Source: Acidimicrobiales bacterium
GTDB taxonomy: Bacteria > Actinomycetota > Acidimicrobiia > Acidimicrobiales > SHLQ01
DNA length: 64,000 nucleotides
Assembly (NCBI GenBank): GCA_020629635.1
Contig: JAHDCX010000005.1
Location: 159,855-223,854, forward strand
Reading direction: 5' to 3'
Shown here: piece after piece, positions 55,299 through 64,000 of the stretch
How the letters are laid out: each line of letters opens with the position of its first letter
How positions within the stretch are numbered: the first letter of the stretch is position 1
Translations under genes and position numbers: made by a program
Notes under the pieces: model-generated
Database searches by the model: none
What the model was told of the DNA's origin: nothing
The model's input: only the letters and a program-made list of their open reading frames with translations

Positions 55299-55826
55299 TC
55301 AGTCCACGAGCCCATCGACGTTGGCCAGCGATTCACGGTCTTTGCACGGGTGGCTGTCGGGCAACTCTTGGTTCCTGGGACTCGACCGGAAACCTTCGCT
55401 CACTCCACCGCCGAAGACGTAGTATTCGCCGATCTCGATGGTTTCGCCCCAGACAGTGATCGTTCTCCCGTCGGCAGAGACTACCGGTTCCATGTCTGTC
55501 TCGGTGAAGAACAGGATGCTCTCGTCGACGACGAGACACCCTTGATCGCTCCACACGATCCCCGGGACTCTTGCTTCCAATCCGGCGCCGCGTTGAACCC
55601 AGAAAATGGACTCTTGTTCGACAGTTCCCCACTCATCTGTCGGCTGGGCGCTCGTTGCGTTGGTGGACGGTTGAGTCGTCGTCGCCTCGCTCGTCGATTG
55701 CTCGGAAGACCCGACATCGGGCGCCGTCGTAGCTGTGGCCTGCTCCGCGTCTTCGATGGTCGCAGTGCCTTGAGTACTGGAACATGCGACCAACAAGATG
55801 CTGCCGGCGATCAGGGTTCGGATCAT
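55299..55826 (-). CDS. Lipoprotein, tandem copy 1
   Basis: The 175-residue lipoprotein (MIRTLIAGSILLVAC, Cys 15) has a Thr/Ser/Glu linker (SSEQSTSEATTTQPSTNATS) and a C-terminal domain of about 110 residues: VWSDQGCLVVDESILFFTET, VVSADGRTITVWGETIEIGE. Two Cys residues in the domain are shared with copy 2. No family recognised. ATG 55826 is the normal start, to be compared with copy 2, whose first four residues were replaced. Confidence 0.8.
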   Translation of the reverse strand: MIRTLIAGSILLVACSSTQGTATIEDAEQATATTAPDVGSSEQSTSEATTTQPSTNATSAQPTDEWGTVEQESIFWVQRGAGLEARVPGIVWSDQGCLVVDESILFFTETDMEPVVSADGRTITVWGETIEIGEYYVFGGGVSEGFRSSPRNQELPDSHPCKDRESLANVDGLVD

Positions 55827-55991
55827 GTCTTCAGCGTGAGGCCCCACGCTTGAAGAATCGCACAGACCGGGCTGAACGCATCGAGTGCGACGCCCCCGGG
55901 CGAACACCCGTCGCCGACGACGTCGAACGAGCTCCTCACCGCGAGCGACGGCGGCCTGTCGCCCGAATCTGGCTTCCCCGCGAACGATCTC

Positions 55992-56507
55992 TCATCGCAC
56001 AAGCCCGTCGACGAGCGCGAGGTACTCCTTGTCACGACATGGATGTGTGGCTGGAATTCCGGGATCGGATTGGGATCCACCGCCGAAGGTATAGGGATTG
56101 CCGATCTCGATCGTTTCACCCCATACGTTGATTGTTCTCCCGTCTGCAGAGACGACGGGCTCGGTGTCTGTCGAGCTGAAGAACAGAACGCTCTCACCGA
56201 CCACCAGACACCCCTGGTCGCTCCAGACGATGCCGGAGATTCTTGCTTCCAATCCGCCGATGCGTTCTGACCAGAGGATCGATTCCTGTTGGACGATTCC
56301 CCACTCGTCTGCCGGCGAGGCACTCGTTGTGGTGGTGGACGGTTGAGTCGTCGTGGCCTCGCTCGTCGATTGCTCGGAAGACCCGCCATTGGGTGCCGTT
56401 GTTGGCGCCTCTTGTTGCTGGTCTTGGATTCTCGCGGTGCCTTCGGTGCTGGAGCATGCGACCAACAGAACGCTCCCGGCGATCAGAGTTCGGATCTCGA
56501 TCAGCAT
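55992..56507 (-). CDS. Lipoprotein, tandem copy 2 with chimeric start
   Basis: The 171-residue paralogue of the previous gene, very similar from IRTLIAGSVLLVACSS on, through the linker (SSEQSTSEATTTQPSTTTTS) and the domain (VWSDQGCLVVGESVLFFSST, VVSADGRTINVWGETIEIGN). Its start is MLIE-IRTLIAG, not MIRTLIAG. The DNA for MLIE and the region just upstream (56496-56522) is identical to the start of the aminotransferase gene. The start codon thus appears to come from recombination. It is divergent from the methyltransferase fusion, 32 bp apart. Confidence 0.8.
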   Translation of the reverse strand: MLIEIRTLIAGSVLLVACSSTEGTARIQDQQQEAPTTAPNGGSSEQSTSEATTTQPSTTTTSASPADEWGIVQQESILWSERIGGLEARISGIVWSDQGCLVVGESVLFFSSTDTEPVVSADGRTINVWGETIEIGNPYTFGGGSQSDPGIPATHPCRDKEYLALVDGLVR

Positions 56508-56539: not shown

Positions 56540-58090
56540 GTGCGCTACGTGTTGTTTCCCGGTCGGCATCACGTCCTGACGACCTACCAGGCGGCATATC
56601 TCGCTGAGCTGCTGGCTGGCCACTGCACGGATCGATCCGGTCACGGCATCGAGGTCTCGGCCGACGCAGTCGTGATCTTCGCGGTCACGTCGTGGGATCA
56701 GGCCGGCACTCGTCGCAACCCGCTTCCCGGTCACCGGCGGGAAGCGGCGATCGAACTGTTCGGCCGAGAGGCCGGTCTGCCCGTGCTCGTGGTTCCGGTA
56801 CCCAATGTCTCGCCCACGCCGCGATTCGCCGACGTGATCATCAACGCCGTCGATGTGCAGACCGGTGGCCGGGTGCGGCTCGATCCAAGCAACTGCGTCG
56901 TGGCGAGCTCGAGCCCCGAAGTGTTCTCGATGTTCGAGGCGACCGGCTACGCCATAGCGCCGGTCGAACTCGCGGCCGGTACGCTCGTCGCCGACCGACC
57001 CTGGACCCTTGTCGAGACGATCGCCGACGACGCGTCAACAGCGGCTGTGGCCGACCGGTTGCACCCGGCGTCGCTCGAGATTCTCGAGCGCTACGACCTC
57101 GCCAACCAGATCGCCGAACTCTTCGCCGATCCACTACTCGGCGACGACGGCGACCTGACCGAGACGCGCGACTACATCACCTACGCCGACAGCTTCGACC
57201 GCGGCGCCGACCGCAAGTTCGGCCTTGTGCGGACGCTGATCCGTCCCGGCCGTATCGTCGACATCGGGTGCGGGACCGGTGCGCTCCTCTCGAAGATCGC
57301 CGGCGCGCCGGAGTTCGCCGAGTGCGACCTCTTCGGCGTCGAGGCAGCCCGACCGCTCTTCGAGATCTGCGAACACCGCCGGACGATGGGGTGGTTCGAC
57401 AACGAGAACACGTTCTTCCATCACCGGAACGTGCTCAACAGTCCGGTGCTGGCCCCGGGGTCGATCGACACCACGATCACGATGGCGCTGACGCACGAGG
57501 TCTACTCGTATGGGACGCACCAGGACGTGCTCGCCATGGCGGCACGGATCGCCCAACACACCCGGTCGGGCGGCGTGTGGATCAACGCCGACGTGTGCGG
57601 CCCGGACCATCCCGACGGCGTCGTCGAGTTCGATCTTGCGGTCGACGACGGGCTCGCCGACTCGTGTCCGGACACGCCGACACCACAGCTGGCCGACATC
57701 GCCGGACACCTCGAATCCCTGTCGACCTGGTCACGCTGGCGGCGATTCGTCGACGACTTCCGGTCCGTCGAAGGCGAGACGGTCGAATGGGAGGAGCGGT
57801 CGCCCGGAACGGCGAGAGCGACGCGCCGAGTCCTGTACGAGTTCTTGTCGAAGAAGGACTACCCGAACAACTGGCTGTCGGAGATGCACGAGGCGTTCTG
57901 CACCTACACGTACGCCGACTGGATCGACATCGCGGAAGAGGCGGGATTCACGATCGCACCCGGGAGCCACGCCTATCGCAACGAGTGGATCGTCGAGCAT
58001 CGGTGGCGCCCCACCTGCTCGATCCGTTCCGCCGACGGGTCGGCAGAAGACTTTGGCGTGAGCCACCTCGTTCTCGCCGCCGCACGCTGA
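56540..58090 (+). CDS. Nucleotidyltransferase-like domain fused to SAM methyltransferase
   Basis: A 516-residue protein with two domains. Residues 1-150 resemble HIGH-type adenylyl/cytidylyltransferases such as NMNAT: FPGRHHVLTTYQAAYL for the (H/T)xGH site and TSWDQAGTRRNPLPGHRREA for the second motif. From about 205 a class I methyltransferase follows with motif I VDIGCGTGALL (240-250), an acidic residue in FGVEAARPLF and TITMALTHEVY as motif IV. Substrates are unknown. The GTG start at 56540 follows GGGAGA. A molybdopterin oxidoreductase begins 20 bp after the stop, so the two are one operon. Confidence 0.8.
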   Translation: MRYVLFPGRHHVLTTYQAAYLAELLAGHCTDRSGHGIEVSADAVVIFAVTSWDQAGTRRNPLPGHRREAAIELFGREAGLPVLVVPVPNVSPTPRFADVIINAVDVQTGGRVRLDPSNCVVASSSPEVFSMFEATGYAIAPVELAAGTLVADRPWTLVETIADDASTAAVADRLHPASLEILERYDLANQIAELFADPLLGDDGDLTETRDYITYADSFDRGADRKFGLVRTLIRPGRIVDIGCGTGALLSKIAGAPEFAECDLFGVEAARPLFEICEHRRTMGWFDNENTFFHHRNVLNSPVLAPGSIDTTITMALTHEVYSYGTHQDVLAMAARIAQHTRSGGVWINADVCGPDHPDGVVEFDLAVDDGLADSCPDTPTPQLADIAGHLESLSTWSRWRRFVDDFRSVEGETVEWEERSPGTARATRRVLYEFLSKKDYPNNWLSEMHEAFCTYTYADWIDIAEEAGFTIAPGSHAYRNEWIVEHRWRPTCSIRSADGSAEDFGVSHLVLAAAR

Positions 58091-58110
58091 CCAGTGGTAA
58101 GGAAGAGGCC

Positions 58111-60348
58111 ATGAGTATCGAGACCGCCTATCGAACGTGTCCCTTGTGTGAGGCCGGATGTGGTCTGGCCATCGAACACGACGGCGATGCCGTCACTCGT
58201 ATTCGCGGAGACCGCGACGACGTCTTCTCTCGCGGCTTCCTGTGTCCGAAGGGAACCGTGCTCGGCCACTTCCACGACGACCCGGACCGTCTTCGCACGC
58301 CGATGGTTCGGGTCGACGGCGAGCTCCAACCTGCGTCCTGGGAAGACGCCTACCAGGCGATCGCCGACGGGCTGAACGGCGTGTGGGAACGTCATGGCCG
58401 CTCCGCGCTCGCGGTCTATCTCGGCAACCCCATGGCGCACAGTCTCGACGGCGCCATGTACGGAAAGACCCTGCTTCGCTCGCTCGCTCCCGGCGCCGTG
58501 TTCAGCGCGTCGACGGTCGACCAACGGCCCCGAGAACTCGCGAGCGGGCTCCTCTATGGCCAGTCCGGCACGATCCCCGTCCCGGATCTCGACCGGACCG
58601 ACTACCTGTTGCTGCTCGGCGCCAACCCGATGGTGTCCAACGGTTCGCTCGCCACCGCGCCCGACTGGCCCGGGCGCATCGACGCGCTCCGAGCGCGCGG
58701 GGGCGAGTTCGTCGTCGTCGACCCGGTCCGGACCAAGACCGCCGAGAAGGCCGATCGGCACCTCCCGATCGTGCCGGGCACCGATGTGCTCCTTCTCGCA
58801 GCGCTGGCGACAGCGCTCGCAGACCACCCCACCACCGACCTGAAGTCGCTGCCCTCTCACTTCGCCGGACTCGCCGAGGTCGTCGATGCGCTGTCGGAGT
58901 TCACGCCCGAATCCGTCGCCGAACGAACCGGCATCGACGCCGCGAGCATCCGCTCGATCGCCGCCTCGCTGGCGACCACCGAAAAGGCCGTCGTCTACGG
59001 GCGGATCGGCACCACGGTGACGCCGTTCGGCACGACGGCGAGCTGGCTCATCGATGTCGTCAATGCGCTCGCTGGCTCGCTCGACCGTCCGGGGGGCTCG
59101 ATGTTCAGCACGCCCGCGGCCGGGTCGTCCACCACCAGAGGTGCTCGCGGGAACGGACGGTCGCATCGCCTCGGCGGCAGGTCGACCCGGGTCGACGCGA
59201 TGCCCGTTGCCCTCGGCGAGCACCCGGCCTCTGCGATGGCGAACGAGATCCTCACCGAGGGAGACGGACAGCTCCGAGCGATGATCACCGTCGGCGGCAA
59301 CCCGGTGCTGTCGTGCCCGGACTCGGATCGATTCGACGACGCGCTCGAGTCGCTGGAGTTCATGGTTTCGCTCGACTGCTACGTCAACGAGACGACCCGT
59401 CACGCCGACGTCATCCTCCCCGCCCCGTCTCACCTGCAGAAGCCCCACTACGACGTCGCGCTCCTGACGCTGGCCATTCGAAACGTGGCCAACTACTCGC
59501 CGGCGATCCTGCCGCTCGACGACGGCGCGGACCGGGAGTGGACGCAGATGACCCGGCTCGCGGCGATGGGCCTCGGCATGGCGTGGGACGACGAAACGAT
59601 CTCGGCGATCGACGACGAAGTCGCCGGGCGCGCAATCGCCGCGGCGTTGGCAGACGCGTCGGCACCCGACGACGGGGTCGACAAAGCCGAGGCGCTCGAC
59701 GTGGTGGCGTCTCGCACCGGCGCCGAGCGGCTGCTCGACATCGCGATTCGGACCGGACCCTACGGAGACTGGTTCGGGGCGCGCCCGGACGGGCTCACGC
59801 TCGACGAGCTCGAGTCACATCCGCACGGCATGGACTTCGGTCCGCTCGAACCGCGTTTGCCCGATGCCATCCGGACCTCCAGCGGCGATGTCGAGTTCGA
59901 CCATCCGGATCTGCTCGCGGACCTCCAACGGGTCGCCGCTCTTCTCGCGGAGCCGTCCGCGGACATGGTGCTCACGGGGCGCCGCACGCTGCGGTCCAAC
60001 AACTCGTGGATGCACAACATGCGGGTACTCGTGAAGGGCAAGCCACGCTGCACCCTCCAGGTCCACCCCGACGACGCGGACCGAATCGGCCTCGCCGATG
60101 GAGCCCCCGCGCGCGTGACGTCGACGTCGGGCACGGTGACCGCGCCCGTCGAGGTGACCGACGCGATCCGTCCTGGCGTCGTCTCGCTCCCCCACGGGTG
60201 GGGCCACGACGTCGAGGGGAGTCGCCTCCGTGTCGCGGCCGAACATGCGGGCGTGAACAGCAACATCCTCACGCCGGCCGACGCGATTGATCCGTTGTCG
60301 GGGACGAGCCAGTTGACCGGGATCCCCGTCGACGTCGTGCCTGCCTGA
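58111..60348 (+). CDS. Molybdopterin oxidoreductase with 4Fe-4S cluster
   Basis: The 745-residue enzyme of the DMSO-reductase superfamily. C10, C13, C17 and C45 bind the N-terminal 4Fe-4S cluster. Residues from about 55 form the Mo-bis-MGD catalytic domain; FSASTVDQRPRELASGLLYG is where the Mo ligand and the active site lie, with no Cys or Sec, so an Asp or Ser ligand or none is implied. The C-terminal molydopterin-dinucleotide binding domain includes LRSNNSWMHNM and VSLPHGWGH. No Tat signal, so it is cytoplasmic. TAAGGAAGAGG precedes the ATG. It is in operon with the fusion methyltransferase. Confidence 0.92.
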   Translation: MSIETAYRTCPLCEAGCGLAIEHDGDAVTRIRGDRDDVFSRGFLCPKGTVLGHFHDDPDRLRTPMVRVDGELQPASWEDAYQAIADGLNGVWERHGRSALAVYLGNPMAHSLDGAMYGKTLLRSLAPGAVFSASTVDQRPRELASGLLYGQSGTIPVPDLDRTDYLLLLGANPMVSNGSLATAPDWPGRIDALRARGGEFVVVDPVRTKTAEKADRHLPIVPGTDVLLLAALATALADHPTTDLKSLPSHFAGLAEVVDALSEFTPESVAERTGIDAASIRSIAASLATTEKAVVYGRIGTTVTPFGTTASWLIDVVNALAGSLDRPGGSMFSTPAAGSSTTRGARGNGRSHRLGGRSTRVDAMPVALGEHPASAMANEILTEGDGQLRAMITVGGNPVLSCPDSDRFDDALESLEFMVSLDCYVNETTRHADVILPAPSHLQKPHYDVALLTLAIRNVANYSPAILPLDDGADREWTQMTRLAAMGLGMAWDDETISAIDDEVAGRAIAAALADASAPDDGVDKAEALDVVASRTGAERLLDIAIRTGPYGDWFGARPDGLTLDELESHPHGMDFGPLEPRLPDAIRTSSGDVEFDHPDLLADLQRVAALLAEPSADMVLTGRRTLRSNNSWMHNMRVLVKGKPRCTLQVHPDDADRIGLADGAPARVTSTSGTVTAPVEVTDAIRPGVVSLPHGWGHDVEGSRLRVAAEHAGVNSNILTPADAIDPLSGTSQLTGIPVDVVPA

Positions 60349-63745: not shown

Positions 63746-64000
63746 ATGGTTCGTCGGGGTCGAACGCGTGAAGAGCGAGCCGTTCGGTCGTCGGACGACG
63801 ACGCGTCGCGATACCGAAATCTCGTTTCGCCGTTCGAGCCGCTCCGGGTGTTGAGCGACGATCAGGTGGCGCACATTCACGATTCGGCGGTGAACTACCT
63901 CGCCGACGAGGGCATTCGTGTGCTGCTGGGCGAGGCACGAGAGATCTACGCGTCAGCGGGGTGCCGGGTCGTCGACGACATGGTCTTCGTCGACCCCGAC
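63746..64000 (+). CDS. MttB-family (trimethylamine methyltransferase-like) protein, partial
   Basis: The first 85 codons of a gene that runs off the window. The sequence PFEPLRVLSDDQVAHIHDSA, then LADEGIRVLLGEAREIYASA and GCRVVDDMVFVDP, is the typical start of MttB/trimethylamine methyltransferase-like proteins. Most bacterial members lack pyrrolysine and act on glycine betaine or other quaternary amines, passing methyl to a corrinoid protein. Only the N-terminus is visible, so the Pyl position cannot be checked. ATG 63746 is 44 bp after the DinB gene. Confidence 0.8.
   Translation, partial: MVRRGRTREERAVRSSDDDASRYRNLVSPFEPLRVLSDDQVAHIHDSAVNYLADEGIRVLLGEAREIYASAGCRVVDDMVFVDPD

Follow-up and report, generated by a model that had tools for sequence, protein, structure and literature searches.

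NAD metabolism is one of the best-mapped pathways, and its bacterial core includes no dedicated methyltransferase that we are aware of. The described systems closest to the protein analyzed here are the archaeal NMN adenylyltransferase (NMNAT; NadM; 1ej2, 1f9a), the NadM-Nudix enzymes (2qjo, 2qjt), the class I SAM methyltransferases YcgJ (1xxl) and RebM (3bus), and the NAD regulons controlled by NrtR, a Nudix-type repressor whose targets are NAD genes and which responds to ADP-ribose (PMC6800001). Each of these is resembled in part by a fusion gene in the window, the 64,000-nucleotide stretch of DNA that was analyzed. With the archaeal NMNAT the fusion protein shares a predicted fold (Z 17.4, ~17% identity), the Arg of the GR motif (R9 in the fusion), and the R-N/D-P loop. 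It is unlike that enzyme in its T-x-x-Q and RPWxxL motifs, in the attached methyltransferase, and in escaping recognition by Pfam and NCBIfam. Like NadM-Nudix, it combines an NMNAT-type domain with a second domain and occurs in an NrtR/NAMPT neighborhood, and a NadM-Nudix copy lies in one of the fusion operons (locus L157). The second domain is a Nudix domain in NadM-Nudix and a methyltransferase in the fusion, and NadM retains an HxGH-type motif. YcgJ and RebM have the fold and motif I of this methyltransferase but not the HExxSY, KDY, and N-x-W signatures that are conserved in the fusion family. The likeness to the NrtR regulons consists of physical linkage of the fusion to NrtR in several phyla. 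No NMNAT-methyltransferase fusion was found described among open-licence papers, and no described NrtR regulon containing the gene was found in the open-licence literature searched.

Gene layout of the locus

The features of the locus are as follows, in window coordinates.

55992-56507, minus strand: small lipoprotein-like gene, divergent, upstream of the fusion
56540-58090 (stop codon included), plus strand: fusion gene of 516 aa, NMNAT-like domain and SAM methyltransferase
56540-57124, plus strand: predicted NMNAT-like domain, residues 1-195
56579-56590, plus strand: T-x-x-Q in the place of HxGH, residues 14-17
56711-56722, plus strand: RRNP, residues 58-61
56996-57013, plus strand: RPWTLV in the place of SGTxxR, residues 153-158
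57152-58087, plus strand: predicted class I SAM methyltransferase domain, residues 205-516
58111-60348, plus strand: molybdopterin oxidoreductase of 745 aa, judged a non-conserved neighbor

The sequence-only reading had placed a fusion gene and a molybdopterin (Mo) oxidoreductase gene 20 bp apart. Both genes are real and their coordinates were confirmed. The fusion ORF opens with GTG at 56540, which coincides with the start of the family alignment, and closes with TGA at 58088-58090. The Mo enzyme starts on the same strand with ATG at 58111, after a gap of 20 nt, and this codon is preceded by the purine-rich GGAAGAGG. An ORF of 1218 aa (56692-60348) in the frame of the Mo enzyme was rejected as a mechanical extension over the fusion gene; the Mo homologues begin near ATG 58111. 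No promoter was found by a promoter scan. Just 5′ of the fusion, the minus-strand segments 55299-55907 and 55992-56507 are tandem paralogous small lipoprotein-like genes. At 63746-64000, the end of the window truncates a gene of the MttB-type trimethylamine methyltransferase family (PF06253, E 8e-13), and only its start is included.

The two domains of the fusion protein

A full-length AlphaFold model of the fusion was built from a 39-sequence alignment and has a mean pLDDT of 92.8. The pLDDT is 95.2 for the N-terminal domain modelled alone. In structural comparisons of this domain, archaeal NMNATs rank first (1hyb/1m8g; Z 17.4, rmsd 2.2 Å, 156 of 161 residues aligned), and lower positions are taken by NadM-Nudix (Z 13.6), NadD (13.0), and PPAT (12.2). 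The overall NMNAT Rossmann-like fold is matched with Z values of 17.4-18.5 and rmsd values of 2.1-2.2 Å. A MobA-like molybdopterin nucleotidyltransferase was considered and set aside; no such fold appears among the neighbors listed, an absence that weighs little with NMNAT, NadD, and PPAT filling the list. When a 22-sequence profile was searched against 177,635 PDB sequences, archaeal NMNATs were the sole matches below E 0.5, with 1f9a as the best (1.3e-10). Only the family profile succeeded: a single-sequence search of the PDB with the fusion N-terminus gave no match. The curated Pfam and NCBIfam models gave no match to the N-terminus of the window protein at E values up to 1. Residues 1-195 are predicted from the models to be an archaeal/NadM-type NMN adenylyltransferase fold. 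A nucleotidyltransferase had been proposed for this region, and as a fold assignment the proposal was right.

The residues G8, R9, T14, Q17, L21, S51, N60, P61, R67, G136, and P154 are invariant in 22 diverse homologues, down to 26% identity. The superfamily motif is T/HxGH (PMC1249556). It is absent from the fusion family, which has the invariant T-x-x-Q instead. The spacing of R9-T14-Q17 equals that of R11-H16-H19 in the M. thermautotrophicus enzyme, and the equivalence of TxxQ with HxGH is drawn from this spacing and from the model range (residues 2-195 on chain 4-170) rather than from a residue-level structural alignment. RRNP matches the RDPF/ENPF loop of archaeal NMNAT. The C-terminal SGTxxR motif is also absent, and RPWxxL is found at the aligned positions in the HMMER alignment to 1f9a/1ej2. 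The earlier label of a HIGH-type nucleotidyl transferase thus survives in its fold and fails in its signature, with T14 and Q17 at the positions equivalent by spacing.

The NadD variant H19A keeps 0.62% of its activity (PMC1249556), and the FAD synthetase variant H28A/H31A turns over at below 0.1 per min compared with 17 per min (PMC3509593). Adenylyl transfer by the fusion is doubtful because HxGH is replaced by TxxQ and SGTxxR by RPWxxL, and because NadD and FAD synthetase lose all or nearly all of their activity when the motif His is replaced. With both catalytic motifs replaced, the suggestion of the sequence-only reading that a metabolite is activated by nucleotidyl transfer is equally doubtful.

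Alternatively, the N-terminal domain might retain nucleotidyltransferase activity with T-x-x-Q for HxGH, its chemistry or substrate having changed, and the protein would then make a nucleotide conjugate and methylate it. The fold is intact, conservation of the pocket across phyla is strong and extends to T14 and Q17, and a T at the first position agrees with the T/HxGH superfamily motif (PMC1249556). These points are outweighed by the loss of the Arg of SGTxxR as well as the second His, by the effect of losing the motif His in NadD and FAD synthetase, and by the canonical NadD-family genes present in 14 of the 14 genomes tested, and this explanation is judged unlikely. Because of those NadD-family genes, the fusion is not the housekeeping enzyme. 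The archaeal enzyme mutants H19A and R136A have been solved as complexes, as given in their PDB titles, and the ligand is presumably NAD. Since these mutants were solved as complexes, the analogy suggests that loss of the His and Arg motif residues need not abolish dinucleotide binding.

The C-terminal part of the fusion was compared in the same model and gives 1xxl with a Z of 20.2. It has the Rossmann fold and the glycine-rich motif I (VDIGCGTG) of class I methyltransferases, which is also supported by alignment, and Pfam methyltransferase families match it below their cut-offs. The nearest structural neighbors are mostly small-molecule enzymes. Residues ~205-516 are assigned from the model as a class I SAM methyltransferase, and methyl transfer is predicted; the earlier identification of a SAM methyltransferase in this part of the protein is supported by both the fold and motif I. 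In four Myxococcota proteins of ~730 aa (L154, L155, L156, and L158), the same methyltransferase family is N-terminal and is followed by two possibly Nudix-like segments. The C-terminal part of these proteins matches ADP-ribose pyrophosphatases weakly, at E 0.08, and the sequence match is suggestive of a tandem Nudix identity.

NAD-gene neighborhoods and the role of the fusion

The fusion family is found in at least five phyla. No relatives were found in viral contigs in one scan, and a plasmid search gave no match. The family profile has matches in 38 of 195 Myxococcota genomes; some are divergent fusions, and in others the methyltransferase is joined to a different C-terminal part. Each genome has 1-2 NrtR_WHD genes. 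Fourteen of the Myxococcota genomes with a divergent fusion were checked, and in 13 of these an NrtR gene, usually the only one of the genome, lies 27-2752 bp from the fusion. The exception is G596, where the fusion is close to a contig end and NrtR is located on a different contig. The chance of such proximity is ~0.1-0.4% per Myxococcota genome, and since the genomes are related the 13 adjacencies may represent one inherited event. A NadD-NadK fusion gene is located 15 bp upstream of the fusion at one Myxococcota locus (L068).

Linkage to NrtR or NAD genes is found in several lineages. In Elusimicrobiota, NrtR lies 66 bp downstream of the fusion. NrtR, SPFH, and NAD-kinase-like genes stand beside the fusion at five Microbacteriaceae/Propionibacteriaceae loci. 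The Bacteroidota genome G789 has an apparent operon (L157) of NrtR, NadM-Nudix, NAMPT, Prs, a HAD-like gene, SPFH, an NAD-kinase-like gene, and the fusion in last place; the HAD-like label was assigned by eye. The NAD-kinase-like protein matches NAD kinase 2 in a PDB profile search (E 4e-15). The NAD-kinase-like genes L032:13392-14300 and L157:8449-9369 are without a Pfam match and are paired with SPFH and NrtR in both Actinomycetota and Bacteroidota. At least 3-4 gains or losses on the tree are needed to account for NrtR adjacency.

Linkage is not seen in the genome of the window, which has NrtR on contig C15 and the fusion on C35. Within the same genus, NrtR adjoins NAMPT in G000 and G005 and adjoins SPFH and the NAD-kinase-like gene in G007, and the fusion is elsewhere. 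Nothing nearby is conserved at most fusion loci of Micromonosporaceae. The NAD link of the fusion in the window is therefore borrowed from its relatives.

Because relatives in several phyla adjoin NrtR or NAD-salvage genes, the fusion probably acts in NAD metabolism, and this link is well supported. We infer that it binds a pyridine nucleotide, that it has lost adenylyl transfer, and that its methyl acceptor is related to NAD. The N-terminal domain would have given up adenylyl transfer (HxGH to TxxQ, SGTxxR to RPWxxL) and kept its conserved pocket, which would bind NMN, NAD, or a derivative, either as a grip on the substrate or as a sensor. With the NrtR regulon switched on, the methyltransferase would then move a methyl group from SAM to an NAD-related small molecule. 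The complete proposal, an NAD-metabolism enzyme with an NMNAT-derived domain that binds pyridine nucleotide without adenylyl transfer and with an NAD-related methyl acceptor, is given an even chance. A more specific version, a methylation step of NAD metabolism not described before, is offered tentatively; in it the NMNAT domain would be repurposed to grip a pyridine nucleotide for methylation, a methylated NMN or NAD would be formed or an aberrant one cleared, and NrtR as the ADP-ribose sensor would serve as the switch. Candidate substrates for the fusion family can be narrowed to a short list by its linkage to NrtR and, in one genome, to a complete operon for nicotinamide salvage.

The NMNAT-like domain may instead be a sensor of NAD or NMN that is coupled to methylation of a protein or RNA, possibly an operon partner such as SPFH or the NAD-kinase-like protein. 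The presence of a conserved pocket alongside degenerate catalytic motifs, the linked SPFH/NAD-kinase-like pair, and the weakly ADP-ribose-pyrophosphatase-like C-terminal part of some Myxococcota methyltransferases are consistent with a sensor. The mostly small-molecule character of the best structural neighbors of the methyltransferase argues against it, and most genomes do not have the two partners next to the fusion; it is considered quite unlikely. Lower still is placed a bacterial nicotinamide/nicotinate N-methyltransferase that acts as an overflow valve against salvage and is tuned by the NMNAT-like domain. Such a valve would fit the operon shared with NrtR and NAMPT and the adjacency of NrtR and NAMPT in the window's own genome, but no relationship to the known nicotinamide/nicotinate methyltransferases was detected among the matches listed, which counts as weak evidence against it.

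The molybdopterin oxidoreductase

The protein encoded downstream of the fusion matches PF00384 (E 1.3e-30), PF01568 (E 9.7e-26), and PF04879 (E 8.3e-10). It has the Fe4S4, molybdopterin, and dinucleotide-binding domains of the DMSO reductase superfamily, and among solved structures it is closest to thiosulfate/polysulfide reductase and the formate dehydrogenases. When it is aligned with 2vpw, a thiosulfate/polysulfide reductase (SLCTAPRE vs TVDQRPRE), the ligand column is occupied by Asp. The Cys/Sec ligand of Fdh/Nap/Phs is thus missing, and the prediction of a Mo site without Cys/Sec was borne out.

The fusion was surveyed in 76 full-length relatives from one genome scan together with same-genus and phylum matches. 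The Mo enzyme adjoins the fusion in the window only, among 78 distinct fusion loci. A Mo homologue lies within 10 kb of the fusion at three of the 78 loci besides the window, all in Actinoplanes (L039, L067, and L088); it is 7-9 kb away there and ~50% identical to the Mo enzyme of the window. In the same-genus genomes G005 and G007, both genes are present on separate contigs. Of 59 relatives, 29 have the Mo enzyme and 3 have the fusion. No conserved neighbor of the fusion was found across the Actinomycetota loci. The partnership envisaged in the sequence-only reading was rejected on this neighborhood survey, the co-occurrence of the two genes having largely failed. A single pathway of the fusion and the Mo oxidoreductase, or a modification of the molybdopterin dinucleotide cofactor, has in its favor the 20-bp spacing on one strand and the three Actinoplanes loci and is very improbable in view of the lack of adjacency at any other examined locus, the different contigs in G005 and G007, and the unequal occurrence of the genes among relatives. 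The Mo enzyme looks like a chance neighbor of the fusion, an example of how a neat gene pair in one genome can arise by chance. In the genome of the window it may share a transcript with the fusion while standing outside the system to which the fusion belongs.
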